From NCBI RefSeq assembly GCF_900177665.1, contig NZ_FXAW01000008.1, positions 186,001-250,000 of the forward strand: DNA of 64,000 nucleotides, in the 5' to 3' direction. Within the stretch, counting starts at the first letter, position 1. Each line of letters starts with the position of its first letter. Source of the stretch: Marivirga sericea (GTDB taxonomy: Bacteria; Bacteroidota; Bacteroidia; Cytophagales; Cyclobacteriaceae). The notes under the pieces are model-generated. The model was not told the origin of the DNA. It saw only the letters and a list, made by a program, of their open reading frames with translations, and searched no databases. Both the position numbers and the translations under genes were made by a program. Below are positions 28,947 to 61,442 of the stretch, one piece after another.

Positions 28947-30062
28947 ATGGCATTCGAAAAACAAATAACGCTCAAGCATTTGCTGATCAGTAATGAAAAG
29001 AAAATTTGGATTCAATTCTATCCTGACAAGGTTATTCAGGCTTTGATTAAATCACTATCTGGTATTAAATGGAGTGAAAAATACCAAATGGTGTACCTAC
29101 CGAATACACAACAGAACTTTTATACCGTAATAAAGACCTTTAAAGGTGTAGCTTGGGTAAATATGAAGTATTTCGCTCCAAACAAACCGGTCAACACTTA
29201 TGGAGAGGAGTTAAAAATTGATGATTTAAGACAGAAATACCCTAAAATACCCGAGGCATACTTTCAGAAATTAGAACTGAAACGGTATGCATTAAAAACA
29301 TCTAAAACTTACTGCATATGTTTTGATAAATTTCTCCGACACTTTCCAAAAAGAGACCCAATTGAAATTCAGGAACATGATATTAAGGCATTTATCCAGA
29401 GACTGATACAAAATGGATTATCTAATTCCTCTGTAAACCAGTCAATTAATAGTATTAAATTCTATTACGAAATAGTTCTTGGTATGCCTAACAGGTTTTA
29501 TGATGTTGAAAGACCGATAAAAGAAGAAAAACTTCCAGAAATACTAAGCAAAGAGGAAGTGCAGGAAATGATTAATAGAACTTATAATTTAAAACATCAA
29601 TGTATTATCAGTTTACTTTACTCCGCTGGTTTAAGAAGAGGAGAATTACTTAATTTAAAGATCTCGGATATTGATAGTAAAAGAATGACTGTCAGAATTG
29701 AACAAGCAAAAGGAAAAAAAGATCGCTATAGCATATTAAGTGAAAGGCTATTACTTAAATTAAGATTATATTTCAAAGAATACAGGCCAAAAGAATATCT
29801 ATTTGAAGGAAAAGAATACCATTGTTACAGCGCAAGTAGTGTCGTTAAAATTGTTAGAAAAGCTGCAAGGCAAGCTAAAATAAATAAAAATGTAAAACCA
29901 CATACGCTTAGGCATTCATTCGCCACCCATCTTTTAGAAGCAGGAACTGATTTGCGATACATTCAACTATTGCTAGGCCACAATTCAACTAAAACCACAG
30001 AAATATATACTCACGTAGCCACAAATACTTTTAAAACTATTAAAAATCCCTTAGATTGCTGA
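28947..30062 (+). CDS. Tyrosine recombinase of the cassette array (XerC/D-like, no IntI-specific insert)
   Basis: 371 residues from the ATG at 28947; an in-frame ATG at 28890 is part of the palindrome. It has an N-terminal extension of about 95 residues, a core-binding SAM-like domain and a catalytic domain. The visible active site is R230 (SAGLRRGEL), K255 (QAKGKKDR), H319 and R322 (HTLRHS), H345 (LLGHNS) and Y354 (TEIYTHV). Only 64 residues separate the catalytic Lys from the first His. This is like XerD (72), whereas IntI-type integrases carry an extra helix there. The gene reads toward the cassettes and stops 47 bp before the first crossover. Family membership is certain; action on the array is inferred from position. 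Confidence 0.92.
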   Translation: MAFEKQITLKHLLISNEKKIWIQFYPDKVIQALIKSLSGIKWSEKYQMVYLPNTQQNFYTVIKTFKGVAWVNMKYFAPNKPVNTYGEELKIDDLRQKYPKIPEAYFQKLELKRYALKTSKTYCICFDKFLRHFPKRDPIEIQEHDIKAFIQRLIQNGLSNSSVNQSINSIKFYYEIVLGMPNRFYDVERPIKEEKLPEILSKEEVQEMINRTYNLKHQCIISLLYSAGLRRGELLNLKISDIDSKRMTVRIEQAKGKKDRYSILSERLLLKLRLYFKEYRPKEYLFEGKEYHCYSASSVVKIVRKAARQAKINKNVKPHTLRHSFATHLLEAGTDLRYIQLLLGHNSTKTTEIYTHVATNTFKTIKNPLDC

Positions 30063-30078
30063 AAAATATAAACTGAAT

Positions 30079-30118
30079 AAGTGTACCCCGAGGTACACTT
30101 AGCGAATCGTTAGCTGTC
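30079..30118 (+). other. attI-like site: hairpin plus first cassette junction
   Basis: Perfect 9-bp inverted repeat AAGTGTACC (30079-30087) / GGTACACTT (30092-30100), loop CCGA. It is followed 8 bases later by the core ATCGTTAGCTGTC; the crossover is G30109|T30110. TTAGCTGTC is the first base block of cassette 1 and pairs with GACAGCTAAC at that cassette's end. The position directly after the recombinase and before the first cassette fits an attI. Confidence 0.75.
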
Positions 30119-30130
30119 ATTTAATCAACC

Positions 30131-30670
30131 ATGCTCAATAGAATTCTAATATCATCTCTTATAGCCATAAGTCTAAGTTGCGTTTCAAAACAATCCAATG
30201 AATACAAACTAGAACAATTGAGCATTCGACCTTTCATTAAAGATTCAATCAAATCATTTCTCGATGATCAATATGAATTTACAAGCCGTAGCATTGGTGA
30301 ATTTGGAACTAAATCAGAACAGTACGAAAGAATTAAATGGTTAATATCCCAGATGAGTGAAAAAGAATTCATCGAACTTATTGAAACTGATCATAGTCTT
30401 TTGAAAACGCTAGGATTCCTTGGCTTATATCGCACTGGAAGTGATAAGACCTCCAAATACTTGATCCCTATCTTATCTGACACCTCAAGCTATGTTCAAA
30501 GTACTTCGGGATGTATGACAAATACTATTTCAATACCTGAATTCATACTAATAGAAAATTTCTCTTACCCAAAAATTTCTAATCCATTCATTGACAAACA
30601 TGTGCACACAATTGATAGTCTTATCATCAAATATGACCTTAATGTCAGAACAAAATTAACAGACAGCTAA
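30131..30670 (+). CDS. Cassette 1: lipoprotein of unknown function
   Basis: 179 residues with a lipoprotein signal (MLNRILISSLIAISLSC, lipidated Cys near residue 17). The rest is mixed helical with no recognised motif. It starts 21 bases after the attI-like crossover, so it is the first gene of the array and would be the newest arrival if insertion occurs at attI. Its stop codon lies inside the left core of site 1 (AGCTAAC). No function can be given. Confidence 0.75.
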   Translation: MLNRILISSLIAISLSCVSKQSNEYKLEQLSIRPFIKDSIKSFLDDQYEFTSRSIGEFGTKSEQYERIKWLISQMSEKEFIELIETDHSLLKTLGFLGLYRTGSDKTSKYLIPILSDTSSYVQSTSGCMTNTISIPEFILIENFSYPKISNPFIDKHVHTIDSLIIKYDLNVRTKLTDS

Positions 30671-30988
30671 CATCACATAAAACCCATTTGCTCCGCACCT
30701 TGTAGCAAAGTTAGCAGTAACTAGCCAGCAATTTATGTTTTCACTTTGTGGCAGCTTCATCAACGGAGGACGGAGCATTGTAGGGCTCAACTTGCCTTTA
30801 AAGTATTTCCGTCAACTCAAGTGTTTGCCATCATCGGGCGGACTGGTTTTTACCGACCCACTGGACCTACCGTTGGTGGACAGCATCACTTTAATCAACA
30901 TACTGCCTTGGTGGAAACCGCATAAATTGCTTAGTTTAGCTTTTCATAGCTTACATTGGCAAACAGGTTTTATGTAGGCGTTATTTAC
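30662..30988 (+). other. attC-like site 1 (unusually long, 327 bp)
   Basis: Left core GACAGCTAAC (30662-30671); right core GGCGTTATTTAC, crossover G30980|T30981. Stem ends ACATAAAACC (30675-30684) and GGTTTTATGT (30966-30975) are perfect complements and pairing continues through TTTGC/GCAAA. The 280 bases between hold no convincing gene; an 80-codon frame at 30735-30977 is considered chance. The left core pairs with the start of cassette 1 over 10 of 10 bases. Confidence 0.85.
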
Positions 30989-31059
30989 AATTTAAGCGGA
31001 ACATATACATTGCTTTGGTAAATAAACTAAAAGAATTCATAAAAACTCCAATCAAAATT

Positions 31060-32166
31060 ATGAGAACTCATATAAATAAAGTCATTCAACTGTTTCCATT
31101 TTTACTTTTAATATTTTTTAGTGCTTGTAAGAACCAAACATCTGAAAATGGTAATCAATCATTTGAATGGGCAATAGAATCACCTGAAAATTCAGGTATT
31201 GATGAAAAAATATTAAATTCCTTAGTCGGTAAAATTAAAGATTCTACTCTTTATGGAGTGGATGCAATAATCTTGGTCAAGAACAAAAAAATAGTATTTG
31301 AAAAATACTTTAATGGATTTGAAGCTGACAGTTTACATAATGTAACTTCTGTTGGCAAAAGTATCACTTCAGCCTTGGTAGGAATATCAATCGAAAAAGG
31401 ATATATCAAAAATAAGAACGAACAAATAATACAGCATTTTAGAGAGGATTATAAAATTGAAAATTTAAGTCTTGAAAAAGAAAATATTCAAATTCATCAC
31501 TTATTAACTATGTCTGCAGGCTGGGACTGCGATGATTGGGATGAAAACTCAGTAGGGAATACAATGCATTTCCCTAATGTCCCTGATGACTTTGCATTTA
31601 CCTTAAATCTTCCGATGATAAAACCTAATGGGGAAGATTTTTCCTATTGTTCAGGGGGAGCTAATCTTTTAGGAGAGATTATTCGTAGGAAATCGCAGTT
31701 AGGCTTAAAAGATTTTGCAAATAAATATCTATTTAATAAGATTGGAGTCACAGAAAATGAATGGTTTATTGCTCCAAAGACCACACCTTACGAATTTGCA
31801 GGGGGTGGTAATTTATTAAAACCTAGAGACCTAGCTCGCTTTGGTTTACTATATCTTAATGATGGTATTTGGGAAGGAGAACAAATAATTCCAAAGGATT
31901 GGATATCAGAAAGTACCTCTAGACAAATTGAGACAAGTGAAGATGGAGATTATGGATATTTTTGGTGGGTAAAAGAATATAATTATAATAATAAAATATT
32001 AAAAGGCTTTGAAGCTTCTGGAAACGGAGGGAATAAATTGGTCGTAATCCCTGAACATAATATTGTTATTATCCTAACAGGAAGTGCTTATGGAAGCGAG
32101 TACGTTGAAGGCGAGCAGGCAAAAAAAATAATAGAGGATTTCCTCTTACCTTCCTTAATAGAATAG
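31060..32166 (+). CDS. Cassette 2: beta-lactamase-like serine hydrolase lipoprotein
   Basis: 368 residues from the ATG at 31060; a TTG at 31015 would put 15 extra residues before the signal. It has a lipoprotein signal ending FFSAC, then a class C beta-lactamase/penicillin-binding fold. SxxK is in TSVGKSITSALVG, YSG-type in YCSGGANLLGE, and a late Gly-rich motif is SGNGGNKL. Family members include esterases, peptidases and D-Ala-D-Ala carboxypeptidases, so the substrate is open. It is the sole gene of its cassette. Confidence 0.85.
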   Translation: MRTHINKVIQLFPFLLLIFFSACKNQTSENGNQSFEWAIESPENSGIDEKILNSLVGKIKDSTLYGVDAIILVKNKKIVFEKYFNGFEADSLHNVTSVGKSITSALVGISIEKGYIKNKNEQIIQHFREDYKIENLSLEKENIQIHHLLTMSAGWDCDDWDENSVGNTMHFPNVPDDFAFTLNLPMIKPNGEDFSYCSGGANLLGEIIRRKSQLGLKDFANKYLFNKIGVTENEWFIAPKTTPYEFAGGGNLLKPRDLARFGLLYLNDGIWEGEQIIPKDWISESTSRQIETSEDGDYGYFWWVKEYNYNNKILKGFEASGNGGNKLVVIPEHNIVIILTGSAYGSEYVEGEQAKKIIEDFLLPSLIE

Positions 32167-32172
32167 ATAAAA

Positions 32173-32256
32173 GTAAATAACATTATGTATGAAATCATAG
32201 CCACGCAAGGCAAACGCACAGACAAAGCTACGATTCATACATTAAACGTTATGGGC
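32173..32256 (+). other. attC-like site 2 (84 bp)
   Basis: Left core GTAAATAAC (32173-32181) and right core AACGTTATGGGC, crossover G32248|T32249. The inner stem pairs ATGTATGAAATCATAG on the left with CTACGATTCATACAT on the right, leaving one extra base on the left arm. The left core is complementary to the first bases of cassette 2 over 9 of 9. Confidence 0.9.
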
Positions 32257-32274
32257 AATAAAATTAGAGGAGAT

Positions 32275-33255
32275 ATGAGCCAAGAAGAATCTAGTAAGGA
32301 ACCACAGAATTCAGAACTATCCTCTGTAGAAGCAGAAGATATTCTATCATATATAGACGGAATTCCGTTACCACCAGCCATAAAGAAAAGCCTATGGAAA
32401 TCACTTGGAAGGCTAATAACAGGGTTAGTAGATGTTCCAGTTGCTTATTTAGAAGCTAAAGTTCAAAAAATAAAAAGCGAAGCTGATGGCTTAAGTTTAG
32501 TAACATCAGAGGCAGCAAAATCTGCTTCTAAAGAATTTGGAGTTGATAGAGAATTGGTAAATCGGTCAGTTAATTTTTTCGGTGCAAAACTCTTAAGAGA
32601 ACAGATTAATAGAGAATCTATTATGGAACAAGCTACTGAAGATTTAAAAAATGATCCTCCAAAAGAAGATTCTAAGGAAGAAATTGATGAAGATTGGCTT
32701 GAAATGTTTTCAAGAATTGCTGAGACTAAATCTAGTAAAGACGTTCAATTATTCTTATCTAAAATTCTTGCAGGAGAGATAAGAAAACCTGGATCATTTG
32801 GTGCTAAAACTATTCAGACCTTATCCACACTCGATCAGCGAACTGCTCAGCAATTTATGAAATTCTGCAATGTCAGCTTTGAATTACCCCAACTTGGAAA
32901 TTCGATGACTTGTGTAATAAGTGAGCCATTTGGTAATCCCGCTAGCAATGGACTTCAAACTTTAGGACTTTCATACGATGTACTCACACAGCTTCAAGAT
33001 GCAGGGCTTGTCAAACATGACTTTACCTCATACAGAACTTTGCCCCCTCTAATGTTCTCCATGCCTCATGTGATTGGAACAACCAAACTAAGCTTTAAAC
33101 CAACCGCACTGACTCCTAGAGAGACTGTGAGAATAAAGGTTTTAAATTTTACATCTGTCGGATTAGAGTTAAGTCAAGTACTTCATAAATCCTCAAATCC
33201 TGTATATGTGGAGAAGTATTCTACATGGATCAAGGATAAATTTAAATTAGAATAA
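32275..33255 (+). CDS. Cassette 3: DUF2806-family protein
   Basis: 326 residues from the ATG at 32275, preceded by AGAGGAG. The in-frame ATG at 32251 (formed by the crossover core GTTATGGGC) would add eight residues, and one at 32185 lies within site 2. The sequence has the DUF2806 look: a long helical region, then a conserved middle block (WLEMFSRIAETKSSKDVQLFLSKIL.. split over residues 140-165) and a beta-rich end. Its biochemical role is not known; members occur in mobile and defence settings. It is the only gene of its cassette. Confidence 0.75.
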   Translation: MSQEESSKEPQNSELSSVEAEDILSYIDGIPLPPAIKKSLWKSLGRLITGLVDVPVAYLEAKVQKIKSEADGLSLVTSEAAKSASKEFGVDRELVNRSVNFFGAKLLREQINRESIMEQATEDLKNDPPKEDSKEEIDEDWLEMFSRIAETKSSKDVQLFLSKILAGEIRKPGSFGAKTIQTLSTLDQRTAQQFMKFCNVSFELPQLGNSMTCVISEPFGNPASNGLQTLGLSYDVLTQLQDAGLVKHDFTSYRTLPPLMFSMPHVIGTTKLSFKPTALTPRETVRIKVLNFTSVGLELSQVLHKSSNPVYVEKYSTWIKDKFKLE

Positions 33256-33256
33256 A

Positions 33257-33454
33257 GCCCATAACATCCTGTATAAATCATGGCTGTTCAGTGCGTAACG
33301 AAACTATGGCTCTTTGTAGATAGCCCGTCAATCCACAGGATTGACTTATTAGTGAAAAATTAATTTAATAACCCAACTGCGGATTGCCTCGGTAGTTAAC
33401 TCAAATTTTTATACTTTTAATCAGCCACGAATTTATACAGTGGCGTTGTGTGGC
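33257..33454 (+). other. attC-like site 3 (198 bp)
   Basis: Left core GCCCATAAC (33257-33265), right core GGCGTTGTGTGGC with crossover G33445|T33446. The stem CTGTATAAATCATGGCTG pairs with CAGCCACGAATTTATACAG, with one base out of register. The left core matches the complement of the start of cassette 3 over 9 of 9 bases. Closely related to sites 6 and 7. Confidence 0.9.
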
Positions 33455-33510
33455 ATTAAAAAGACCGTGCCTGAGTTCAAGATTTAATATAACTAATAAA
33501 AAATATTTAC

Positions 33511-33999
33511 ATGCCTAATTATCCTCAGAGAAATGAAAACCATGTGTTAGAGAATAGGTCTCGAAACTTTTTAAGGAGATATCTTCCTCAAGAATGGACT
33601 TCCCAAGATGTTGAGTACGACTATGGGCAAGATATGCTAATTGAAATATCAGAAAATGGAGAAATGAGAGGTCTAGGATTGATTATCCAATTAAAAGCCT
33701 CACATACAGCTAATGTAAATCCTGAATTTGAAACACTGATTTTAAGACAACAGACGTATAATTATCTATGGGATAGACTTGAAGTTGTACTTTTAGTTAA
33801 ATATGTACAAGAAGAAAATGAAGCTTATTACAAGTTGCTAAGTGAAGTTCAACCTCCCGAAAATCCAGACCAAGAAAACTTTACGATAAGAATCCCCAAA
33901 ACTAATACAATTTCAACACTGGATTGGAATGTTATAGTAAATTATGTTAGGGAGATTACAGATTTGAAATTAAATGCAGTTAGAAATAGAAGACGATAA
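33511..33999 (+). CDS. Cassette 4: DUF4365 protein, nuclease-like fold
   Basis: 162 residues of the DUF4365 family. It shows YDYGQDMLIEI followed by LGLIIQLKAS, the D...(Q/E)xK arrangement of PD-(D/E)XK nucleases, to which this family is related. DUF4365 proteins are frequent in defence-type islands. It lies 8 bp before a membrane protein gene within the same cassette, so the two probably act together. Catalytic activity is inferred. Confidence 0.75.
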   Translation: MPNYPQRNENHVLENRSRNFLRRYLPQEWTSQDVEYDYGQDMLIEISENGEMRGLGLIIQLKASHTANVNPEFETLILRQQTYNYLWDRLEVVLLVKYVQEENEAYYKLLSEVQPPENPDQENFTIRIPKTNTISTLDWNVIVNYVREITDLKLNAVRNRRR

Positions 34000-34007
34000 T
34001 ACAAAAC

Positions 34008-34724
34008 ATGGTAAATCACGAAAAACCTCAAAACAAAATAATTCAGTTTTGGCAACGTAATATTGTCCGAATATTATTTGCTGTTTCTTTGATTTTTAGT
34101 GTTGTATATAGGACAATATTAATAAATATCGAGGAAGCTTTTCCTTTCGCTTTTGAGTTGGGAGAAATAACATATTATACAGCTCTTGCAGTATTTGCAT
34201 CTTGCATTTTTTATTACTTCATAGTCCATCTAAAAGAGAAGTCTGATAAGAGAAAAATCAAACAACTTGTGAATATGAGGTTAGAGCAAATTGAAATGAT
34301 GAAAGGAATAATATTCAAGGATATAATATCTCAATCACAAGTGCAGGACAAAAAACAGGAATTTCCTAAATCAATTGAAGACTTAAAGGAAATTCTAAAA
34401 GGAATGAAGTTAACAGCAAGACCGCCAAGATATTTTGCAGGCTCTCAGCTTGTTGAAGTTAAAGATTGGTATACTTATTTTGAGTACAATTTTCATTATG
34501 ACAAACATAACATAGAGATACTTCAAAAGCATATTACATTTTTGAATTCAGAAACGGTTCAGATGTTACATGACTTATCTTCCTGTATGTTTATTACAGC
34601 AATTCACCAATATGACCGAGAAAAGGGAACTAATGATTACGCTGATAAGTTTGAAAACCTAGCAGGTCCATTATACGATTATTTAACTAAGCTCGGGAAT
34701 TTTAAAAAGGATTGCTGGCTATAA
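34008..34724 (+). CDS. Cassette 4: membrane protein with two N-terminal helices
   Basis: 238 residues, helices near 19-38 and 50-71, then a long cytoplasmic region rich in charged helices. No family recognised. It begins 8 bp after the DUF4365 gene with no recombination site between, so both travel as one cassette. A nuclease-like protein plus a small membrane protein is a layout seen in some abortive-infection pairs, but nothing in the sequence proves that. Confidence 0.65.
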   Translation: MVNHEKPQNKIIQFWQRNIVRILFAVSLIFSVVYRTILINIEEAFPFAFELGEITYYTALAVFASCIFYYFIVHLKEKSDKRKIKQLVNMRLEQIEMMKGIIFKDIISQSQVQDKKQEFPKSIEDLKEILKGMKLTARPPRYFAGSQLVEVKDWYTYFEYNFHYDKHNIEILQKHITFLNSETVQMLHDLSSCMFITAIHQYDREKGTNDYADKFENLAGPLYDYLTKLGNFKKDCWL

Positions 34725-34730
34725 AATAAC

Positions 34731-34864
34731 GCCACACAACAATAAATATACGTAATGCGGGGCGATTTGGTAAATTTGAACTTTAAAGCAATTAATAAAC
34801 AATGTAGCGGTTTGATGCTGAAGTGTCTTGAAATCCCGCACTACGCATATTCGAGCCGTTGGGC
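34731..34864 (+). other. attC-like site 4 (134 bp)
   Basis: Left core GCCACACAAC (34731-34740), right core GCCGTTGGGC, crossover G34858|T34859. The stem ATACGTAATGCGGG pairs with CCCGCACTACGCATAT with few mismatches. The left core complements the start of cassette 4 over 10 of 10 bases. The stem sequence resembles site 10. Confidence 0.9.
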
Positions 34865-34939
34865 ATAATACAGATACATCCAAGAAATAAAATGAAACTC
34901 ATAGATACCATAAAGTGAAACATTTAGTAAATTGATTCA

Positions 34940-35773
34940 GTGATAAAATCTGTTATCTCCATGTATTTTAGTAGATTAATTTCGTACACTTCCAAATGGT
35001 ATCACACGTTTTTAGTAGGCTTTATATTGGCAACAATGGTTGTAGTCGTTTTAATTTTTCTCCAACCATTTGATATATACGGAAATGAAATAGCCTACAA
35101 AAACATAAAGATGATCGGCTATGGAATTTGTATCGTCCTTCCAATATTGCTTATTCATGTTTTAGAAGAGCTTTGGTTTAAGCGCACCGATGGAAAATGG
35201 CATGTTTATCAAGAGCTATTTATATTAATTTTAGGCTTTTTGTTAATTTCAATCACCTCCTACATCTACAATGTGACAGTGGTCAATAACCACACTATAG
35301 AATCAAGCCAAGTTTTTTACTGGGTGAAGGATTTTGGCTTACCCTTTATTCCTATTTTTTTTCCTTTCTGGGTGTATCTCCGATTTAGGTTTAGTAAAAT
35401 TACTCTTCCATTCTTTCTTGATAAAAATACAAAATCGATTTTAATTGCAGGGAATAACCAGAATGAAGTAATAGAATTCCTTGAAAGGGATTTTATTATG
35501 GCGAAAGCACAAGCTAACTATGTAGACATTTACTATATAAAGAATGAATTGCTGAAAAAGAAAATGATCAGATCAAAATTTGCTAATCTAAAAAATAAAA
35601 TTCCATTTGCAGAACAAGTCCATAGGTCGTACTTAGTTAATCCTTCACAAATTACCCAAATATACGGCAATACTCGTAAAGGCCACATTACCATAAAAAA
35701 AATTGAGGAAGAGGTTCCAGTATCACCAAAATACTTTTCAGCGATAAAAAAGTATCTTCAAGATCATTCTTAA
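34940..35773 (+). CDS. Cassette 5: membrane-anchored LytTR regulator
   Basis: 277 residues from a GTG; an ATG at 34961 would give 270. About four helices fill residues 15-145, and a C-terminal LytTR DNA-binding domain (about 185-275: QANYVDIYY, VHRSYLVNPSQITQIYGN) follows. It has no receiver domain, so it may sense a membrane signal directly. The aspartic-protease-like gene 123 bp downstream is in the same cassette and may be its target. Confidence 0.8.
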   Translation: MIKSVISMYFSRLISYTSKWYHTFLVGFILATMVVVVLIFLQPFDIYGNEIAYKNIKMIGYGICIVLPILLIHVLEELWFKRTDGKWHVYQELFILILGFLLISITSYIYNVTVVNNHTIESSQVFYWVKDFGLPFIPIFFPFWVYLRFRFSKITLPFFLDKNTKSILIAGNNQNEVIEFLERDFIMAKAQANYVDIYYIKNELLKKKMIRSKFANLKNKIPFAEQVHRSYLVNPSQITQIYGNTRKGHITIKKIEEEVPVSPKYFSAIKKYLQDHS

Positions 35774-35896
35774 AATTCTTGCTTCTACAGTAAGGTTCAA
35801 AGTTATCCCAAATGCTTCAAACCTGTCACAAAGTTTTTTTCATAAAGAATCTGTTCCCGTTCTTTGCCAGAATATTATTGAAATCAAATTAAAGAA

Positions 35897-36880: not shown

Positions 36881-36887
36881 TATAAAC

Positions 36888-37024
36888 TATGCCCAACACT
36901 AAATATAGGTCATTGGGCAGATAGTAGTAAAATCGAAAATGATTACATTTAAGAAAATATGTAGGCAATCGGTAGTTTGTAGCCTCGAAATGCCCAACGC
37001 TCTATATTCTTAACGTTGTGGTGC
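36888..37024 (+). other. attC-like site 5 (137 bp)
   Basis: Left core TATGCCCAAC (36888-36897), right core AACGTTGTGGTGC, crossover G37015|T37016. The stem AAATATAGGTCATTGGGCA pairs with TGCCCAACGCTCTATATTCT. The left core pairs with the start of cassette 5 over 10 of 10 bases. The interior is nearly the same as site 8 and the half-site at 61374. Confidence 0.9.
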
Positions 37025-37062
37025 ATTAGAAACCTGCCTTAGCGAGCATTAATTAAAACGAA

Positions 37063-38259: not shown

Positions 38260-38265
38260 GAACGA

Positions 38266-39054: not shown

Positions 39055-39055
39055 C

Positions 39056-39256: not shown

Positions 39257-39297
39257 ATTGAATCCACCCTAACCAATGTAACATTACCAAAAATAAT

Positions 39298-40392: not shown

Positions 40393-40397
40393 AGTAG

Positions 40398-41242: not shown

Positions 41243-41245
41243 GAA

Positions 41246-50757: not shown

Positions 50758-50849
50758 ACTATATATGCTTTATTTGCTAAATATCATGCTTAAACACACT
50801 AAGAATTATATACTAGAAATTTATATCGTATTATAGAATCGAAAAAAAT

Positions 50850-53459: not shown

Positions 53460-56085
53460 AGAATTTGAAATTTTTAAAAATGGCAGTACTTGGCTTAGAG
53501 CTGACTTTCATTTACACACAAAAGCGGACAAAGAATTTGTGTATCGTGGAGAAGATAATTCTTTTGTTTCTGACTATGTAAATAAGTTAAGTGAAGAAAA
53601 AATTGGTGTCGCAGCAATAACAAATCATAACAAATTTGATTTTAACGAATATAAAGCACTTGCCAAAAAGTCTAGAAAACAAGAGATTTATCTATTGCCA
53701 GGAGTGGAATTATCAGTAAATGATGGGGCGAATGGAATCCACTGTCTTATGATTTTCAACCCCATTGAATGGCTTGAAAATGGTACGGATTATATTAACA
53801 GCTTTATAAACCAAACATTTGCAGGCAAACATAATTACGAAAACGAAAACGGACGTTCAAATGATAGCCTAATTGAGACTATAAAAAAGCTTGATGCTTT
53901 CGAGAAAGACTATTTTATTATAATGGCTCATATCGAGGCAAATAGCGGATTCTACAAAGAATTAAATGGAGGACGAATTACAGAGTTGGGTAAAGTGCCA
54001 ATATTCCGTAAGGCAGTTCTTGGATTCCAAAAAGTAAGGACAAGAGATATAATTAAAAACCTTAATACTTGGCTTGAAAACGAACTACCAGCTTTTGTAG
54101 AATGTTCTGACGCTAAAAATATTGAAGAAATTGGAACAGGTAATACTTTAAATGGAGTTACGCAAAAAACATATTTGAAAATTGGTGCATTTAACTTTGA
54201 AGCTATAAAATATGCTTTATTAGACCAACAATACAGACTAGCACAAAACACGACTGACCCTATTAACGGATATATTAAATCCATCAGTTTCAAAGGTGGA
54301 AAATTAGATGGCTCAACACTTCATCTAAATCCGTCTATGAATAACTTGATTGGTATAAGAGGAAGCGGTAAATCTTCAATTTTAGAGGCTATTAGGTATT
54401 CTTTAGATATTGATTTAACTGAAAAGCAAAATGTAGATTATGACTATAAAACAAAGTTAGTTAACGCTTTATTAGGAAGTGGCGGTAAAATAACTTCGGT
54501 ATTGGTTGATGACCAAGGAAAAGAATATGTAGCTGAGAAAATACTTGGAGATAGAACGAACATTTACAAAGATGGAGAACTTCAGCTTGGACTAAAGCCA
54601 AATGCAATTGTAAAAAAGCCTATATACTTTGGTCAAAAAGACCTTTCTCAAATAGGCGATTCTTTATCAACTGAATATTTGATTAGTAAATTAATTGGCG
54701 ATCGTTTACTTAATAAAAAACGAGAGGTTGAAGAAAAAAATCAAGATGTTTTAAAAATTATCAATGAACTCAAAAAAATTGATTCAAAAGTTGCTAGAAG
54801 AGCAGACATTGAAGCGAAACAAGCGGAGTTGAAAATTAAAATTCAAGTTTTTAAAGATAATGAAATAGACAAAAAACTTGAAAAGCAAATCTCTTTCGAC
54901 AAAGACAGCAATTTCATTAAACGTCTTGAAAAATTCGAGTTAAAAGTTATTGAGGGAATAAATGAATATGTTGGAGAATACGAAGATAGTTTTCAAAGCT
55001 TTAAAGCATATTCGTCAAAAGAGAATACCACAGATATTGATAAAATAAAGCAACATTTGATTGCCTTTGAAGGCATATTTCTTGAAACCAAAACTATTTC
55101 TTCAAGGTTAGTTACCGAAAATTTAGCTCTTGAGACAATGCACAAAAGCTTCAATGTAAAATATGAAGAGCTGAAAGAAGAATTTTCAAAAATCAAGCGA
55201 GAAATAAATCTTCCTAATATTCAGGCGGATGACTATGTTAAATATACAAAGGAACTTGATTTAACAAAAGCTCAATTGTCGGAGTTAGAAAAGCTTTCAA
55301 AAAAGAAAAAAGAATTAGAAACTCAGTTAAAACAGACTTTAGTATCATTACAAAAACTATGGCACAACGAATTTGAAATTGTACAAGAAGAAATAAAAAA
55401 AGTTAATGATGACCAAGATTCAATTAAAATAGCTGTTGAGTTTAAAGGAAACAAACAAGATTTCAAATCATATTTAAAAGAGAATCTCAGAGGAAGTAAT
55501 TTAAGGGACAATAATATTCAAACAATCATTGACAGTTATAGTGATATGATTGCGGTTTATGAAGATTTGAATCTACCAAAAAGCAATATTTCTACAAACC
55601 TTTCAGATGTTCAACTTCATACGTTTCGAGAATATTTCAATTCAAATATTGAAGCCTTTCTGACGTACAGGATACCTGATAAATTTGATATTATATACAG
55701 AAACAGGCCATTGAATGAACACTCTTTAGGGCAAAGAGCTTCCGCTTTAATAATATTTCTATTAACACTAAAAGAGAGTGATTTAATAATTATTGACCAA
55801 CCAGAGGATGATTTGGATAATCAAACCATCTATAATGATGTTATAAAGGTATTGAAAGAATTAAAAAACACCTCTCAATTTATTTTTGCCACTCACAATC
55901 CAAATATACCTGTTCTTGGAGATTGTGAACAAGTAGTTTCTTGTAGATATGATTCTAACATAATTGAGACTAACCTTGGGAGTGTTGATGATGAATCAAT
56001 CAGAAAAGAAATAGTAAATATTATGGAAGGTGGCAAAGAGGCATTTAACAATAGAAAAAGAATTTACGAATTATGGACGCATTAG
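53452..56085 (+). CDS. Cassette 12: TrlF-like protein, PHP domain plus SMC/ABC-type ATPase
   Basis: 877 residues. The N-terminal PHP-type phosphoesterase region shows FHLHT (His20, His22), AAITNHN, PGVELSV and MAHIEAN. An ABC/SMC-like ATPase follows with Walker A GIRGSGKSS near 301-309, long coiled coils (about 415-650), a signature-like HSLGQRASALI, Walker B LIIIDQPEDDLDN near 778-790, and a switch His in FATHNPN. This is the layout of TrlF-family ATPases found in defence loci. PHP metal-dependent cleavage driven by ATPase sensing is plausible but inferred. It overlaps both neighbours. Confidence 0.85.
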   Translation: MDKEFEIFKNGSTWLRADFHLHTKADKEFVYRGEDNSFVSDYVNKLSEEKIGVAAITNHNKFDFNEYKALAKKSRKQEIYLLPGVELSVNDGANGIHCLMIFNPIEWLENGTDYINSFINQTFAGKHNYENENGRSNDSLIETIKKLDAFEKDYFIIMAHIEANSGFYKELNGGRITELGKVPIFRKAVLGFQKVRTRDIIKNLNTWLENELPAFVECSDAKNIEEIGTGNTLNGVTQKTYLKIGAFNFEAIKYALLDQQYRLAQNTTDPINGYIKSISFKGGKLDGSTLHLNPSMNNLIGIRGSGKSSILEAIRYSLDIDLTEKQNVDYDYKTKLVNALLGSGGKITSVLVDDQGKEYVAEKILGDRTNIYKDGELQLGLKPNAIVKKPIYFGQKDLSQIGDSLSTEYLISKLIGDRLLNKKREVEEKNQDVLKIINELKKIDSKVARRADIEAKQAELKIKIQVFKDNEIDKKLEKQISFDKDSNFIKRLEKFELKVIEGINEYVGEYEDSFQSFKAYSSKENTTDIDKIKQHLIAFEGIFLETKTISSRLVTENLALETMHKSFNVKYEELKEEFSKIKREINLPNIQADDYVKYTKELDLTKAQLSELEKLSKKKKELETQLKQTLVSLQKLWHNEFEIVQEEIKKVNDDQDSIKIAVEFKGNKQDFKSYLKENLRGSNLRDNNIQTIIDSYSDMIAVYEDLNLPKSNISTNLSDVQLHTFREYFNSNIEAFLTYRIPDKFDIIYRNRPLNEHSLGQRASALIIFLLTLKESDLIIIDQPEDDLDNQTIYNDVIKVLKELKNTSQFIFATHNPNIPVLGDCEQVVSCRYDSNIIETNLGSVDDESIRKEIVNIMEGGKEAFNNRKRIYELWTH

Positions 56086-57230
56086 AATTATTGGATTTAA
56101 TCCAAAAAGGAGAATCAAGCGTTGTGCAATTTAAAGTCCGCATTAATGATGCTTACAAAATAGGCACAGAAATGGTGGCGTTTTCCAATACAAAGGGTGG
56201 CTTAATTATCATCGGAGTTGACGACAAAAGCGGAGATATTAATGGACTGTCATTTGAAGAAATAGCAGAAACCAATCAGCTTTTGGCTAATGCTGCTTCA
56301 GATAATGTCAAACCTCAAATTTTTATTGAAACGGAAACCGTAGAAGTAGAAAACAAGAATGTCATTGTAGCTAGTATAGCTGAAGGAATGAGCAAGCCTC
56401 ATACTGACAACAAAGGTATAATTTGGTTAAAAAATGGTTCTGACAAACGCAAAGTTGTAGCAAGAGAAGAGATGGCAAGATTACTTCAAAATAGTGGGAA
56501 CCTTTTTGCAGATGAAACCTTAGTAAACGGAACAACAGTAAACGATATTGACGAAGACTTTTTCCAAGAATTTGTGCTTGCAAAAACAAAAAAATCTATC
56601 GAGGAAATCGGTCAATCAACATCAACCGTACTTTCTAATCTTGGAATGATAAAGGAAGGAAAACTTAGTCTTGGAGGACTACTCTTGTTTGGTAAAAATC
56701 CGCAACAGTTTAGACCAAATTTTACCGTTCAATGTGTGTCTTTCGTAGGAAATGACATAAGCTCAAAGGAATATCGAGACAAAGAAGAACCAATTACGGG
56801 AAATTTAAAAGAGCTGTACGAAAAAACACTCTCTTTTATTACTCGTAACCTAAAAAAGGTGCAAATAAAAGAGGGTTTTAACTCACAATCTAAATTGGAA
56901 ATTCCAATCGAAACTATTGAGGAATTACTTGTTAATGCCTTAATTCATCGAGACTACTTTATTTTATCAAGTATTAAGATATTCATATTTGACAATAGAA
57001 TAGAAATTACAAGTCCAGGAAGATTACCCAACACATTAACAATCGACAATATCAAAATAGGAACCTCGATTTCTAGAAATCCGATATTATTTACAAATGC
57101 TAGATATATTCTTCCTTTTGTAGGTGTTGGTAGCGGAATACCCAGAGCAATTGAGAATTCGCCTGACTTAGAATTAATCAATGATACTGAAAGAGAGTTG
57201 TTTATTTCTGTAATTAAACGTCCTGAATGA
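56073..57230 (+). CDS. Cassette 12: AlbA_2 (Schlafen-type) ATP-binding protein
   Basis: 385 residues. The N-terminal AlbA_2/Schlafen-like domain has VQFKVRINDAYK and AFSNTKGGLIIIGVDD; the C-terminal region is the RecG-like/HATPase_4 type (ELLVNALIHRDYF, NRIEITSPGRLPN, GVGSGIPR). Proteins of this family are annotated as putative transcriptional regulators and are frequent in phage-defence operons. It overlaps the TrlF-like gene by 13 bp, so the two are made together. Confidence 0.85.
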   Translation: MDALELLDLIQKGESSVVQFKVRINDAYKIGTEMVAFSNTKGGLIIIGVDDKSGDINGLSFEEIAETNQLLANAASDNVKPQIFIETETVEVENKNVIVASIAEGMSKPHTDNKGIIWLKNGSDKRKVVAREEMARLLQNSGNLFADETLVNGTTVNDIDEDFFQEFVLAKTKKSIEEIGQSTSTVLSNLGMIKEGKLSLGGLLLFGKNPQQFRPNFTVQCVSFVGNDISSKEYRDKEEPITGNLKELYEKTLSFITRNLKKVQIKEGFNSQSKLEIPIETIEELLVNALIHRDYFILSSIKIFIFDNRIEITSPGRLPNTLTIDNIKIGTSISRNPILFTNARYILPFVGVGSGIPRAIENSPDLELINDTERELFISVIKRPE

Positions 57231-57233
57231 ATA

Positions 57234-57347
57234 GCCAACGCTAAAAGCCATACACATTTGCAATTCGCTACAGCCAACGCTACGCCCAAAATTATAAAAG
57301 AGTATGTCTTTGCCAACGCTACGAACCGAACGGAAAAAAAGTACGAA
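57234..57347 (+). repeat. Three copies of GCCAACGCTA with exact 39-bp period
   Basis: GCCAACGCTA starts at 57234, 57273 and 57312, that is 39 bp apart each time, between the last gene of cassette 12 and site 12. The 29 bases between the copies are not conserved. The exact period suggests decayed tandem repeats or a spaced protein-binding array. Confidence 0.6.
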
Positions 57348-57482
57348 AACACAACAATGTATATAAAAAATAGGCGTATTATTAGTAAAATCAAGGCTTT
57401 GGGCTCATATCAAACTTTGTGCTTAGCTGAAAGTTCAGTGCTTCGAAATCGCCTACTTTTCATATACTAAACGTTAGGTGAA
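57348..57482 (+). other. attC-like site 12 (135 bp)
   Basis: Left core AACACAAC (57348-57355), right core AACGTTAGGTGAA, crossover G57473|T57474. The stem TGTATATAAAAAATAGGCG pairs with CGCCTACTTTTCATATAC. The left core complements the start of cassette 12 over 8-9 bases, 4.4 kb away. Confidence 0.9.
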
Positions 57483-57518
57483 ATTTTATCGTATTAAAAA
57501 TAACTCAAAGTTCTATTC

Positions 57519-58427
57519 ATGAAATTCGTAAACGAAAATGGCAAAAAGTATGTTCTAGTTTCTTCCCAAAACCAATTAGATGAACTTCAAGAAAGGATTT
57601 CTCAGAACAACCCATTTGCTGATAAGTTCAAGTTTTCTGAACAGAGCCTCTTTATTGGTTTACTTGAATCATTAGGAATCAGCCATAAAGATTTTACGAA
57701 AAAGTATTATTACTACGACCCATCTAGGAAACTTCATATCTCAGAAAGCGAATTTGGTTATGTATGGATTAGTACGGCTGGATTAGTTGCAAAAAGTAAA
57801 CCAAGCACTAATAGAGCTTTAAATTCCTGTTTAGCTCAATACTTAGTCATATCACTCCTTTTTAAGAAAGCAATTGAAGTTGTTAAGGACGAACGGGTTT
57901 ACGATATAGACTCGTATAGCTCTGGTCAGTTAAATAAACTATCTCCAGCTATATTTCATAATCTCACGTTTTATATCGAGGTATTCTGTAAGGCCTATCT
58001 TTCACTTACTAAAGTCGAAATTCCTCACTCTCATAGCTTGACATTGTTGTATAATAAAACCGTGGATGCAATGGTCAATAATAAACATGACGACTCTCTT
58101 TTTCAAATATTGGTGTTAGACCCTCTTTATAAATTCGTTCAACATATTGACGAAATCCCAGGTAATTTCAAAGAACAGTTTATTAAGTACGATGACAACC
58201 TATTAGATGACTCGGTAATTTTATTTGATTATACTGGTCTAGTTGAGATGACATCAATCCTTGAATTATCTGTTGATTTTATATCTGCATACTATTACGA
58301 AGGAACAAAGACATATTACCTAGAATCAGATATTTATAAGAGAATGATGGATAAAGCGGAAACAGAGGAAAAAAAGAAGAAAATTCGTGAAATGTACCCG
58401 CATTTAGCTGGCAAAAAGAAAAAGTAA
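57519..58427 (+). CDS. Cassette 13: unknown cytoplasmic helical protein
   Basis: 302 residues with no signal peptide or membrane helix, mostly predicted helical from its pattern, and a strongly basic Lys-rich end (LAGKKKK). No motif was recognised; the RxxxxH motif of HEPN ribonucleases was looked for and not found. It is the sole gene of its cassette. Confidence 0.65.
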   Translation: MKFVNENGKKYVLVSSQNQLDELQERISQNNPFADKFKFSEQSLFIGLLESLGISHKDFTKKYYYYDPSRKLHISESEFGYVWISTAGLVAKSKPSTNRALNSCLAQYLVISLLFKKAIEVVKDERVYDIDSYSSGQLNKLSPAIFHNLTFYIEVFCKAYLSLTKVEIPHSHSLTLLYNKTVDAMVNNKHDDSLFQILVLDPLYKFVQHIDEIPGNFKEQFIKYDDNLLDDSVILFDYTGLVEMTSILELSVDFISAYYYEGTKTYYLESDIYKRMMDKAETEEKKKKIREMYPHLAGKKKK

Positions 58428-58428
58428 C

Positions 58429-58597
58429 TTCACCTAATATCACCTATAAATTAATGGGGCTTCATCAGTCACGAAGGTTTGGTGGCACTTGGAAAGTCAA
58501 CCACAATATGTAAATTTATTAATTGCTGTGGTTTTGTGCAATTGGCAAGCTTAGTACTTTTTAAGCCCCAATCATCATAGGCATAGCGTTGGCGGCA
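58429..58597 (+). other. attC-like site 13 (169 bp, altered left core)
   Basis: Left core TTCACCTAAT (58429-58438) has T where all other sites have the C of AAC. The right core is AGCGTTGGCGGC, crossover G58588|T58589. The stem CACCTATAAATTAATGGGGC pairs with GCCCCAATCATCATAGG. Nine of ten core bases still complement the start of cassette 13. The mutation may slow excision. Confidence 0.85.
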
Positions 58598-58620
58598 TTA
58601 AACACAGATAAACCTGAAAT

Positions 58621-58884
58621 ATGGAAAAAATAGTAATTCAAGAAAGTTCGATAGAGCTTACTCATGGTCGAAAAGGACAAATAGCAGTAATAATGTATGC
58701 AGGAGACAACGATCCAGTTGCAAAACTGAATTTAGCAGTCTCCCAATATGTTGGAAATGTAGGACACAGTCAATTTGTTGACATTAGCATGGATAATCCG
58801 TGGGTTAGGGTTATTATCTCAGGAATTAATGAAATGAAGCAAGAAGATTTTGACCCATTGAAACACAAGTTGAAAGAATGGTAG
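58621..58884 (+). CDS. Cassette 14: small protein of unknown function
   Basis: 87 residues, soluble, mixed strands and helices, no motif. The stop overlaps the next ATG by 7 bp (GAATGGTAG), so it is coupled to the larger protein after it. The pair could be partners such as an inhibitor and an enzyme, but this is only suggested by the layout. Confidence 0.65.
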   Translation: MEKIVIQESSIELTHGRKGQIAVIMYAGDNDPVAKLNLAVSQYVGNVGHSQFVDISMDNPWVRVIISGINEMKQEDFDPLKHKLKEW

Positions 58885-59540
58885 TTGCGAATCTTGGTGG
58901 GGCAATAGAATATTGGCTTGGATTTCAGGATAAGATTGGTCGTTCATTTATGATGAATGAAAATGCTTTAAAATACCCTTTAGCGGACTATTTAGTAAAT
59001 GAGGGTAATGTTGACTTGCAGTTAATTGACCTAGAAAGAGCTCACCCAAACTTTTCTAATAGGCAAGTAGATTTAACTGTATTGAATCCTCAAAATGCGC
59101 CAATCAACAATCTTTTCGAACTGAAACTTGCGAAAGTTGAAACAAGATACCAGTCTGAAAAACAAAGAATTTTTAATGATCTTATGAGACTTTACTTAGG
59201 AAGTTTAGTTTCTACTGACAAGTGCTATTTCATAATTACAGGCAAAACAACTCACTTTCAAACTGACTTCAAGAATTCACCGAATACAGGAATTAGGTTT
59301 TACGATAAGTGGTTCTCATTCATAAAAGGCCAAACAAGGACTTTTAATGTTGCAACCGAGACCAACTCCACGTATTGGGATATCTATAATGAATTTCAAC
59401 AGAAATATTCTAAAAAATACAAAGGTCAAACAAGCAATACTTTACAATTGCCTAATCAAATAACAACAACTTGTGAATTTATGACTGCATTCAGTCCCTC
59501 ATTAGTTCCTTACATGATTGGAGTTTGGTCTGTAAAATGA
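58878..59540 (+). CDS. Cassette 14: possible PD-(D/E)XK nuclease-fold protein
   Basis: 220 residues. Asp65 in NRQVDLTVLN followed by FELKLAK (Glu81, Lys83) fits the D-x(n)-ExK core of PD-(D/E)XK enzymes, with the right spacing and strand pattern. No family name could be attached. It overlaps the small gene upstream by 7 bp and shares its cassette. Nuclease activity is inferred from the motif alone. Confidence 0.6.
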   Translation: MVVANLGGAIEYWLGFQDKIGRSFMMNENALKYPLADYLVNEGNVDLQLIDLERAHPNFSNRQVDLTVLNPQNAPINNLFELKLAKVETRYQSEKQRIFNDLMRLYLGSLVSTDKCYFIITGKTTHFQTDFKNSPNTGIRFYDKWFSFIKGQTRTFNVATETNSTYWDIYNEFQQKYSKKYKGQTSNTLQLPNQITTTCEFMTAFSPSLVPYMIGVWSVK

Positions 59541-59546
59541 AAAGAA

Positions 59547-59616
59547 CCACCAACAAAACCTAAAAGCAATAGCACCCTTCGGGACGCTACTGCTCATAGC
59601 CAGAACGTTATATGTA
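59547..59616 (+). other. attC-like site 14 (70 bp, shortest)
   Basis: Left core CCACCAAC (59547-59554), right core AACGTTATATG, crossover G59607|T59608. The stem AGCAATAGC pairs with GCTACTGCT around a short loop. The left core complements the start of cassette 14 over 7 of 8 bases. Its length is in the range of ordinary attC sites. Confidence 0.8.
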
Positions 59617-59635
59617 AAATCACACCACGAACCTG

Positions 59636-60397
59636 ATGACAAAAATATATCACTATACAAAACTATCAACGGCAATAAAATACATTCTCCCAACCAAAAA
59701 ACTTCGAACGAACTCCCTTTCGCAAACAAACGACCCAAGAGAAAACCAACCGTGGGCATTTGGAGGTGTTAACATCGATTATAAAGGTATCTATCCAAAC
59801 ACATATAATGACAAAACCCATATTGATCATCAATACCAACTCGGTAAGGAAATAAAGAGCAGAGTTCAAATTATTTGTTTTGTCCATTCGGATAAACGCC
59901 CTGGGTTTGAAAACGAAATGATGTGGGCTCACTATACCGAAAACCATGAAGGGATTTGTCTTGAATTAGATGAAAAGGTTTTCTTAAATGAGAATACCAA
60001 CATCCCCATATTTCAACTCGAAAACGTAACTTATGGAACGAGTGATAAACCTTGGCTTCATTGGAACAGATCAAGGAACAAGGAAGAAAATATTAACAAC
60101 TTCATCCAAGCGGGGTTCAAAAGTCTTGTTCTCTCTAAATCTGAGTATTGGGGACGTGAGTATGAAAAGCGCTTATTGATTTTATCAACAGATCAACATT
60201 ATCTATCAATTCAAAAATCTCTCACTGGAGTCTATTTCGGAATATCAATGGATGCCAATTACCGTCCAGCAATTGATCGACACCTTAACCCTAAGCAAAC
60301 TAAAATTTACGATCTTTATTACGAAAGTCAACGAATCAATGCGATGGAACGGAAGTTTGAAGATTTCCGACCGTCTATAATGAAGAAATATCTATGA
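59636..60397 (+). CDS. Cassette 15: DUF2971 protein
   Basis: 253 residues of the DUF2971 family, with its hallmarks YHYTKLSTAIKYI near the start, SLSQTNDPRE, and MMWAHYTENHEGICLELD in the middle. DUF2971 proteins are common in accessory and defence-like islands; their activity is unknown. No recombination site follows it, unlike the other single-gene cassettes. Confidence 0.82.
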   Translation: MTKIYHYTKLSTAIKYILPTKKLRTNSLSQTNDPRENQPWAFGGVNIDYKGIYPNTYNDKTHIDHQYQLGKEIKSRVQIICFVHSDKRPGFENEMMWAHYTENHEGICLELDEKVFLNENTNIPIFQLENVTYGTSDKPWLHWNRSRNKEENINNFIQAGFKSLVLSKSEYWGREYEKRLLILSTDQHYLSIQKSLTGVYFGISMDANYRPAIDRHLNPKQTKIYDLYYESQRINAMERKFEDFRPSIMKKYL

Positions 60398-60523
60398 ATT
60401 ATGAATTGGATCAATTGGAACGGCAAATGAAAGTCTGGAATTTATTCTCTAAATTTAATATTAAATTCGAAGAGTGCAGTTTCTTTGGTAGCCACTGAAA
60501 GATCCGCTCGTCCATCTTAAGCT

Positions 60524-61363
60524 ATGTATCATTCCCGAAAGAGATATCTTGAAAAATGCTGGATTTGTGGTAACACTGCTGACTCAGATGAACATAAATT
60601 CAAAAGGTCGGATATCGTCAAAGCATATGGTAAAGGTCAATATGTGGAGAAGGGTGAATTTCAACCAATGTTGATCAATATAAGAAATTCCTACATTAGC
60701 GGATCAAATGATAAGAAGATAACGATTCGTAATGTTTTGTGTCAAAAATGCAATAATCATTTGAGTCAACCCTTTGACACTTCCTATGAAAAATTTTCTA
60801 ACTATATCTCTAATCACATTGATCTCATTCAGGAATCAAATAAGATAGATTTTCAGGACATATATGGTGGAGAATGGCCTGATCAAATAATAAATTTATA
60901 TAAATACTTTATTAAGATTTTCGGTTGTCGATTATCAAAAGAGGGTATAAAAATCAGTAAAAATGTTATCGAGTTTCTAACTTCTAAAAATGATAAGTTG
61001 AAGCATATGAAATTTAGGTTTGCCATTAAGCCTGATATAGTAAATCTTCAAAATTTTGGGGAAAGAGGATATCATCATCTTTATTTTGGGGGACTAGAAT
61101 GGGTTGGAGTTTCAGAAAAAGAAACGGAAACAATTTTCAGTTGGTTTACTAATTATGGAATTAGCATTTACTGGGTGTATAACCTATCAATTGAATCAGG
61201 AAACAAATATCAACCATTCTTATTTCAAAAAGAGGAATTAGTCGAAGTCCAACAGAGTGAACACTTACCAAAGGAAAAGACCACTATCAACGGATTGGTT
61301 GATTTTATCGAAGGTGAAAGTTACAACAAGATTGATTTGATAAATTCAATATTATTTGATTAA
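60524..61363 (+). CDS. Cassette 15: HNH-endonuclease-like zinc-binding protein
   Basis: 279 residues. The N-terminus has CWICG, then DEHKFKRSD and a second pair CQKCNNH (about residues 74-80), the Cys4/His pattern of some HNH-type nucleases. The rest is unrecognised. It lies 126 bp after the DUF2971 gene with no site between. The following half-site does not match the start of cassette 15, so this gene probably came from another cassette fused by deletion. Confidence 0.65.
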   Translation: MYHSRKRYLEKCWICGNTADSDEHKFKRSDIVKAYGKGQYVEKGEFQPMLINIRNSYISGSNDKKITIRNVLCQKCNNHLSQPFDTSYEKFSNYISNHIDLIQESNKIDFQDIYGGEWPDQIINLYKYFIKIFGCRLSKEGIKISKNVIEFLTSKNDKLKHMKFRFAIKPDIVNLQNFGERGYHHLYFGGLEWVGVSEKETETIFSWFTNYGISIYWVYNLSIESGNKYQPFLFQKEELVEVQQSEHLPKEKTTINGLVDFIEGESYNKIDLINSILFD

Positions 61364-61373
61364 AAATGGCAAT

Positions 61374-61442
61374 GCTTACAACAATAAATATAGGTCATTG
61401 GGCTGATAGTACGAAAGTTGAAAATGTTCGCATTTAAGAAAA
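61374..61442 (+). other. Truncated attC-like half-site at the end of the array
   Basis: GCTTACAAC (61374-61382) followed by AATAAATATAGGTCATTGGG and GCATTTAAGAAA aligns with the left halves of sites 5 and 8. The right half and a CGTTR core are missing. Similarity stops near 61441, marking the right-hand breakpoint of the array. Confidence 0.85.

Follow-up and report, generated by a model that had tools for sequence, protein, structure and literature searches.

Integrons are described as systems of the integrase IntI, which needs an insert of its own to recombine folded single-stranded sites, and the question raised by a locus in the genome of the Bacteroidota species Marivirga sericea is whether an enzyme without that insert could gather gene cassettes in a similar way. 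The locus lies in a stretch of 64,000 nucleotides (contig NZ_FXAW01000008.1, positions 186,001 to 250,000), called the window below and giving the coordinates used throughout. Comparison of its sequence with those of other genomes points, with high confidence, to a chromosomal integron-like array, in which an insert-less tyrosine recombinase heads 14 co-oriented cassettes, likely captured by that very enzyme.

Anatomy of the array and its cassette ends

The sequence-only reading of this DNA, made before the present work, had described one tyrosine recombinase, an attI-like junction, 14 complete cassettes and a damaged one, all in one direction, and each of them was found again in its place. 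The same is true of the ends it had given for the sites: CGTTR on the right at 15 of 15 junctions (attI counted), and YAACA on the left in 13 of the 14 complete sites, or 14 of 15 with the terminal half-site, the exception being CTAATA at 58434. The sites are 61–317 nt long and directly oriented, and the open reading frames (ORFs) assigned to cassettes are all on the plus strand; four antisense minus-strand ORFs of at least 100 amino acids that overlap them (36244–36546, 46229–46537, 53952–54293 and 56954–57394) were not counted. The start of the recombinase gene is placed at 28890, the earlier start at 28947 being an in-frame ATG. The features are as follows.

28481–28858, minus strand: gene of a zinc-finger/treble-clef-like protein, 125 amino acids, divergent from the recombinase; homologues in family members
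28852–28896, no strand: near-perfect palindrome with AAACGTTTATTAAACGTTT core, read from the sequence and similar in several family members; operator candidate
28890–30062, plus strand: tyrosine recombinase, no IntI insert, extra N-terminal domain (Pfam Phage_integrase, E 3.3e-38)
30079–30109, plus strand: attI-like junction, a 9-bp hairpin AAGTGTACC/GGTACACTT and then the first GTT at 30109 (sequence and family comparison)
30109–30979, plus strand: cassette 1, 179-amino-acid protein, no Pfam family; site 30667–30983; own-start/own-end match of 10 bases
30980–32247, plus strand: cassette 2, PF00144 serine hydrolase; site 32177–32251
32248–33444, plus strand: cassette 3, DUF2806; site 33261–33448
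33445–34857, plus strand: cassette 4, DUF4365 protein and 238-amino-acid protein; site 34736–34861
34858–37014, plus strand: cassette 5, LytTR regulator and weakly aspartyl-protease-like protein; site 36893–37018
37015–38390, plus strand: cassette 6, HEPN/Toprim N-terminal-domain protein; site 38270–38394
38391–39246, plus strand: cassette 7, 150-amino-acid protein; site 39061–39250
39247–40524, plus strand: cassette 8, alpha/beta hydrolase; site 40403–40528
40525–45107, plus strand: cassette 9, seven ORFs including a cNMP-binding protein, a weak beta-barrel match and an epimerase; site 44986–45111
45108–48570, plus strand: cassette 10, 287-amino-acid protein, LuxR-type regulator and thioredoxin-like protein; site 48449–48574
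48571–53044, plus strand: cassette 11, AraC regulator, DUF2807, 194-amino-acid protein and PF00144 hydrolase; site 52922–53048
53045–57472, plus strand: cassette 12, AAA ATPase with Ppl-like PADLOC match and Schlafen AlbA_2 protein; site 57351–57476
57473–58587, plus strand: cassette 13, 302-amino-acid protein; site 58434–58591, TAAT replacing TAAC
58588–59606, plus strand: cassette 14, 87- and 220-amino-acid proteins; short site 59550–59610; own match partial
59607–61442, plus strand: damaged cassette 15, DUF2971 protein (PDC-S31 match) and 279-amino-acid protein; terminal half-site 61378–61442; start and end mismatched

The clearest sign that these cassettes once were circles is that each tends to match itself. 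In 12 of the 14 complete cassettes of the window, the first 8–10 contiguous bases are the reverse complement of the last bases of the same cassette, cassette 14 having a partial match and the damaged cassette 15 none. Over positions 5–10 of all 15, own pairs sum to 71, as against 56 at most in permutations, and none of 200,000 permutations reaches the observed value, which is itself lowered by the end of cassette 13 having been entered two bases off. Out of six possible matches, own pairs average 4.73 and other pairs 1.82; the end of a cassette set against the start of the next (n = 14), the pair that forms each array site, averages 1.86 and so stays at background level.

Arrays elsewhere in this genome and in its relatives behave alike: 189 sites in 39 of 42 searched stretches yielded 126 usable cassettes (consecutive sites more than 6 kb apart or without exact AAC/GTT being left out, and cassettes of locus L007, three sites of which helped to build the site model, being included), with an own-pair sum of 540 against at most 293 in 20,000 permutations, 5–6 matches out of 6 in 83 of the 126, and means of 4.29 for own pairs, 1.90 for others and 2.01 for the next start (n = 90). 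In named genomes from other genera, for the most part Aequorivita sinensis and Arundinibacter roseus, 5–6 matches were counted in 11 of 16 consecutive pairs, those more than 4 kb apart being dropped.

The sequence of the outer box itself is almost free. The consensus of 168 cassette starts reads C|GTTR[GT][ACG]NNY[AC]ATT; when these starts are held against the classical GTTRRRY core, AAC/GTT is conserved, R at position 5 occurs in 46%, R at position 6 in 58% and Y at position 7 in 43% of them, and in the window the classical core fits 2 of the 15 junctions only. Conservation of pairing in a box of such variable sequence suggests that what is recognised is a folded strand.

Within cassette 11, at about 50700–50720, there is also a lone sequence resembling a left half-site, CCAACATGTATAATTC, perhaps the remnant of an older border. 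At its far end the array stops abruptly inside the half-site, and positions 61443–61484 separate it from a convergent Eco57I-type methyltransferase gene (61485–63968). Some of the cargo looks defence-like, namely the AAA ATPase of cassette 12 (its Ppl-like match scores 110 bits), which adjoins the Schlafen AlbA_2 protein, and the DUF2971 protein with a PDC-S31 match in the damaged cassette 15.

Predicted site folding, the recombinase and its neighbours

In a set of 14 sites (11 from the window and three from a second array) an inner stem of about 17 bases covaries: 84.5% of cells are paired, as opposed to 67.9% in shuffled sets, and double changes, present in 13 of 19 pairs, number 44 against 15.6. 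Shifting the stem partner by one to three columns abolishes the signal. The mismatches in the stem are asymmetric. On the written strand of 151 out of 154 sites (sites shorter than 100 nt or without exact AAC/GTT, and then three of the 154 with weak stems, having been set aside), they comprise 208 A.C, 22 G.T and 112 others; the A.C to G.T ratio is 66:5 in 46 dissimilar representatives, and removal of the three strongest positions leaves 58:22 in all sites and 28:5 in the representatives. The bias is seen in plus-strand arrays (139:25), minus-strand arrays (90:5) and named genomes of other genera (53:7), counts which differ slightly from the 208:22 set in that sites without exact ends were kept. 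Since an A.C mismatch in the written strand corresponds to G.T in its complement, and G.T is tolerated in a folded strand where A.C is not, it is the bottom strand that appears to be under structural selection, as with attC, whose bottom strand is the one bound by IntI integrases according to a passage of PMC3053210.

In the recombinase, R249, K274, H338, R341, H364 and Y373 are invariant across 20 aligned family members; we take over the catalytic roles of these residues from what is known of XerD and IntI. Its distinguishing mark is what it lacks. The span from R279 to H338 takes 60 residues in 27 of 27 family members, as against 66–69 in 16 Xer-like and 102–107 in 16 IntI-like proteins, the IntI-specific insert of about 42 residues being absent from the window recombinase; similarly, the alignment to 2a3v (IntI4/VchIntIA) is interrupted at a point where 64 residues of IntI, as against 21 of the window protein, lie between the matched stretches, a difference of about 43. 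In a tree of 117 proteins (two short rows dropped) IntI, without this family, forms one clade (100/99) and Xer another (100/100), labels that were set by insert length and not by independent annotation, and 26 of the 27 family members form a clade of their own (100/98). The latter is nested in a wider, mostly Bacteroidota group (87/95) with a few archaeal and viral-contig rows. Such a tree of sequences does not tell a gain of the insert in IntI from its loss in this family.

Loss in the family is what one would have to suppose if the locus were a canonical but divergent integron, with an IntI that had lost its insert acting on ordinary attC sites. The architecture and the inferred bottom strand would be the same, and of three pairs of neighbouring sites in the classical Paraglaciecola array (L104), two show own-end complementarity over 7 nt when judged by eye. 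Besides, the ‘integron integrase’ model TIGR02249 does match the window recombinase, in two stretches, and one source names close relatives ‘site-specific tyrosine recombinase/integron integrase’. Against these stand the R279–H338 span, with its 60 residues in the 27 family members and 102–107 in the 16 IntI-like proteins, an IntI clade without this family, a TIGR02249 score of 204.9 bits where the cut-off is 265, and the GTTRRRY core at 2 of 15 junctions, so that we regard a divergent IntI as unlikely. The opinion of the sequence-only reading that the recombinase is not an IntI is upheld by insert length, tree position and the TIGR02249 score alike.

An insert-less recombinase heading a cassette array, the reading that we prefer, is also equipped at its other end. 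The best NCBIfam score is that of NF040815 (216.6 bits, just below its cut-off of 220), and 4a8e and 5hxy are among the solved structures nearest to it in sequence, with matches that miss the N-terminal domain. This extra domain is predicted to fold as beta-beta-alpha-beta-beta-alpha-beta (model pLDDT 83.8, pTM 0.60). A profile of it found nothing better than E 0.19 among PDB sequences. The HARP-like N-terminal domain of Pfam gave weak sub-cut-off matches in 5 of 10 proteins (best E 0.0033), which are 5 of 6 from the wider clade and 0 of 4 from the family, and none for the window protein; a second look (VIA) barely reached that part of the model, and the HARP likeness is at most a lead.

Two further parts accompany the recombinase. 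Directly upstream and divergent, a homologue of the zinc-finger protein occurs in 26 of 27 family members and with 1 of the 15 wider-clade recombinases examined. Its Cys motifs are invariant in 25 aligned members, and its model (pLDDT 91.9) has no Foldseek match at E ≤ 0.001; we hypothesise that it is probably a regulator or an accessory DNA-binding partner. The palindrome between the two genes has halves containing CGTT, and together with the zinc-finger gene it is possibly a self-regulated control region of the platform. On the other side, the stop codon of the recombinase is followed by the hairpin and GTT junction. A hairpin ending 0–8 nt before the GTT with a score of at least 7 was present in 20 of 22 examined junctions, compared with 57 of 440 shuffles; these 22 come from 27 family junctions, L039 being left out for a contig end and L016, L018, L020 and L045 for junctions that could not be placed by eye. 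We infer that this junction acts as attI. Insertion targeted to a tRNA gene was also considered, as in tycheposon-like islands, where the recombinase lies next to such a gene, and was rejected: the window does have a tRNA-Leu at 28173–28257, but 13 of 16 other scanned loci are without tRNA or tmRNA in the fetched stretch.

Recurrence and distribution of the cassettes

The sequence-only reading had named gain or loss of segments at unrelated boundaries in related genomes as evidence that would overturn it, and the cassettes withstood this check: in such genomes a cassette may occupy one array while others lack it, with C|GTT borders and unrelated flanks. Cassette 8 occurs whole in another Marivirga species (G006) at 94.4% identity, with a left border C|GTT and 200-nt flanks that are 51.0% and 56.5% identical, and cassette 5 occurs whole in the same genome, in a different place, at 75% identity. 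When 142 cassettes, 14 of them from the window, were compared all against all, six pairs reached 90% identity or more along the entire cassette or all but a few bases at its end; borders were inspected in five of the six, whose 200-nt flanks are 50–56% identical, and in the cassette-5 pair. Recombination at G|TT, as first proposed, calls for a correction: the borders put the exchange within CGTT, and the bases shared there do not resolve that exact point.

One recurrent cassette has no ORF. It is 485 nt long (L201:5138–5622, minus strand) and has its own site; of 59 genomes, the window's among them, six hold it, at 18 places in all, 15 of the 18 matches starting at its first base. It sits after several different left sites, and exactly at the attI-like junction in two genomes. 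In G009, three identical copies lie in one array with unrelated flanks, and a fourth copy of equal score lies elsewhere; further copies are in the window genome (G000, contigs C4, C7, C17, C23 and C24), G001, G005 and G008, with partial matches in G003 and in contig C25 of G000. Contigs C4, C7 and C23 of the window genome end inside it. It may carry a promoter or a structured RNA; Rfam gave no match for it in the two loci searched, where the copies are partial. The repeated GTTGTATTTAATTCC element, taken for a group II intron at one point, was rejected as such, its aligned copies being this same cassette with its own site.

It could be argued that the repeats form a mobile family of their own, for instance a hairpin that spreads between genes, and that the recombinase merely happens to lie beside them. 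Many sites do lie far from any recombinase, and most DNA matches of the array in the genus, among the matches listed, are sites alone. However, the shared gene-bearing DNA stops at cassette borders and not at the repeat, cassettes obey the own-end/own-start rule, and in the 21 loci that hold both sites and recombinase, all 101 sites share the recombinase's orientation and 100 lie downstream of it; we consider a mobile repeat family very improbable. The sequence-only reading would have given up the cassettes if the repeats sat in unrelated places without a recombinase in all genomes; repeats away from a recombinase do exist, and the sites beside one are co-oriented with it. DNA inversion of the shufflon kind was rejected, as in none of 39 stretches did sites occupy both strands.

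Cassettes with a dedicated recombinase, the reading retained here, are by no means confined to the window. Its genome has three family recombinases (100, 79 and 57% identity) and 48 sites at E ≤ 0.1 on 12 contigs. Contigs C3, C5, C8, C10, C16, C17, C18, C23, C24 and C25 have sites and no family recombinase, in the manner of CALIN elements, in which integron sites occur away from the integrase (a passage of PMC9024848); some of them may be broken pieces of one array. At least two sites were found in 24 of 28 genomes with a recombinase (E ≤ 1e-60) and in 12 of 31 without, among the 59 genomes mentioned above. In 395 Bacteroidota genomes (own included), a wider-clade recombinase was found in 113 at the same threshold, and four genomes besides the window's gave matches above 500 bits, which is where the narrow family scores. 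Sites are present in at least 116 of the 395, a lower bound as few candidates per genome were scored. Both occur in 67 genomes, the recombinase only in 46, sites only in 49 and neither in 233, giving an odds ratio of 6.9 with kinship ignored. Wider-clade recombinases also lie on archaeal-titled contigs (L066, L069 and L070; Undinarchaeales, Woesearchaeota), which gave no site match at E ≤ 0.01. Among viral contigs, 34 of 80 fetched loci were searched with the site model, with two weak matches.

Proposed mechanism and relation to known systems

Several observations weigh against the interpretation of the locus as a cassette-capturing array with an insert-less enzyme. The evidence for it is comparative throughout, and the wobble and co-occurrence counts ignore phylogeny. 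As a classical control for the wobble bias, 16 IntI-like loci were scanned for attC with strict and loose settings and gave few sites, enough only for the three pairs judged by eye in L104. The copy of cassette 8 in G006 has C|ATT at its right border, the bases after that border running ATTT and not GTT, and within this copy two outer-box bases of the start do not match the end; 12 of the 14 complete window cassettes have no whole-cassette match in the genus among the matches listed. The minimum-energy fold lacks the expected stem in one of 14 sites (36893–37018), and 43 of the 126 consecutive-site pairs match at fewer than 5 of 6 positions, which, we suggest, may be due to missed sites and fused cassettes. 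Finally, passages of PMC9668308 and PMC8138268 describe the additional domain of IntI as necessary or essential if integrons are to recombine, and given the latter's ‘essential’, a recombinase without the insert must handle folded sites in another way.

Another enzyme could also act on some of the sites, as 49 of the 116 site-bearing genomes have no recombinase at E ≤ 1e-60. In principle it might be the housekeeping XerC/XerD pair, moving segments as dif modules, which have no dedicated recombinase and whose dif sites are about 28 bp long. The genome has two Xer-like proteins (L004 and L005), and those 49 genomes would fit; the sites, however, are hairpins of 61–317 nt in direct orientation with a CGTT core, and a dedicated recombinase heads the arrays, so that Xer-dependent modules seem to us most unlikely.

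If the array is indeed the work of its own recombinase, its operation might be as follows. Once a cassette is free and circular its ends would adjoin, and the variable outer boxes (YAAC and about six bases, GTTR and about six) would pair fully. The bottom strand of the circle would then fold into a hairpin of this outer stem and the inner one of about 17 bp, and the recombinase, reading shape rather than sequence, would cut within CGTT and join the folded site to the attI-like junction, inserting the cassette beside the attI hairpin. In the array each site has outer boxes from two different cassettes, mismatched beyond GTTR, which should make it, when folded, a weaker substrate than the circle. 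The less paired substrates for excision may bias the system towards capture over loss, which is offered here as a hypothesis.

On balance, we lean towards a second integron lineage across Bacteroidota, with folded single-stranded DNA sites, an insert-less recombinase with a dedicated N-terminal domain, a co-evolving zinc-finger partner, a sequence-free outer stem complete only in the circle and a built-in bias for capture. The divergent zinc-finger gene, the attI hairpin and the extra N-terminal domain would be its new parts. Bacteroidota are named among the integron-bearing phyla in passages of PMC2426708 and PMC8618304, and a passage of PMC9024848 gives one Salinibacter case of a complete integron there, besides Chlorobi and Ignavibacteriae. 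Among the open PMC texts, judged by titles, opening lines of abstracts or passages, we recognised no account of a Bacteroidota cassette system that lacks IntI; preprints and the majority of subscription papers lay outside the search. If the array does what its anatomy indicates, a major phylum commonly captures cassettes by means of another enzyme, folded sites can be used in more ways than through the insert of IntI, and finders built on that integrase and on the attC model are probably missing a large stock of exchangeable genes, part of which looks defence-like. The system would also be a natural experiment on which features of a protein recognise a folded site with an almost freely varying outer sequence.

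Among known systems, the archaeal XerA and NF040815 (‘site-specific tyrosine recombinase/integron integrase’) stand near the window recombinase by structure match and NCBIfam score. XerA acts on dif-like sites and is not known to head a cassette array. Rfam returned no relevant family for the array region, where no attC family was listed, or for two other recombinase loci. The nearest likeness is to sedentary chromosomal integrons, which share the single tyrosine recombinase at the head of co-oriented cassettes, the attI-like junction, hairpin sites with AAC...GTT ends, own-end complementarity and an inferred folded bottom strand, as well as ORF-less cassettes and CALIN-like clusters; tandem co-oriented cassettes that each end in their own imperfect-palindrome site, a mark of classical integrons, are found here as well. 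The sequence-only reading had set this array apart from textbook integrons, rightly for its non-IntI recombinase, less so for long sites and array size, which alone are not unlike those of known chromosomal integrons (in Vibrio the repeats are about 125 nt and the arrays exceed 100 kb). What does differ from sedentary chromosomal integrons is the absence of the IntI insert, the separate recombinase clade and the extra N-terminal domain, a variable core box with 8–10 bases of own pairing instead of GTTRRRY, the attI hairpin, the divergent zinc-finger gene and the several multi-gene cassettes.

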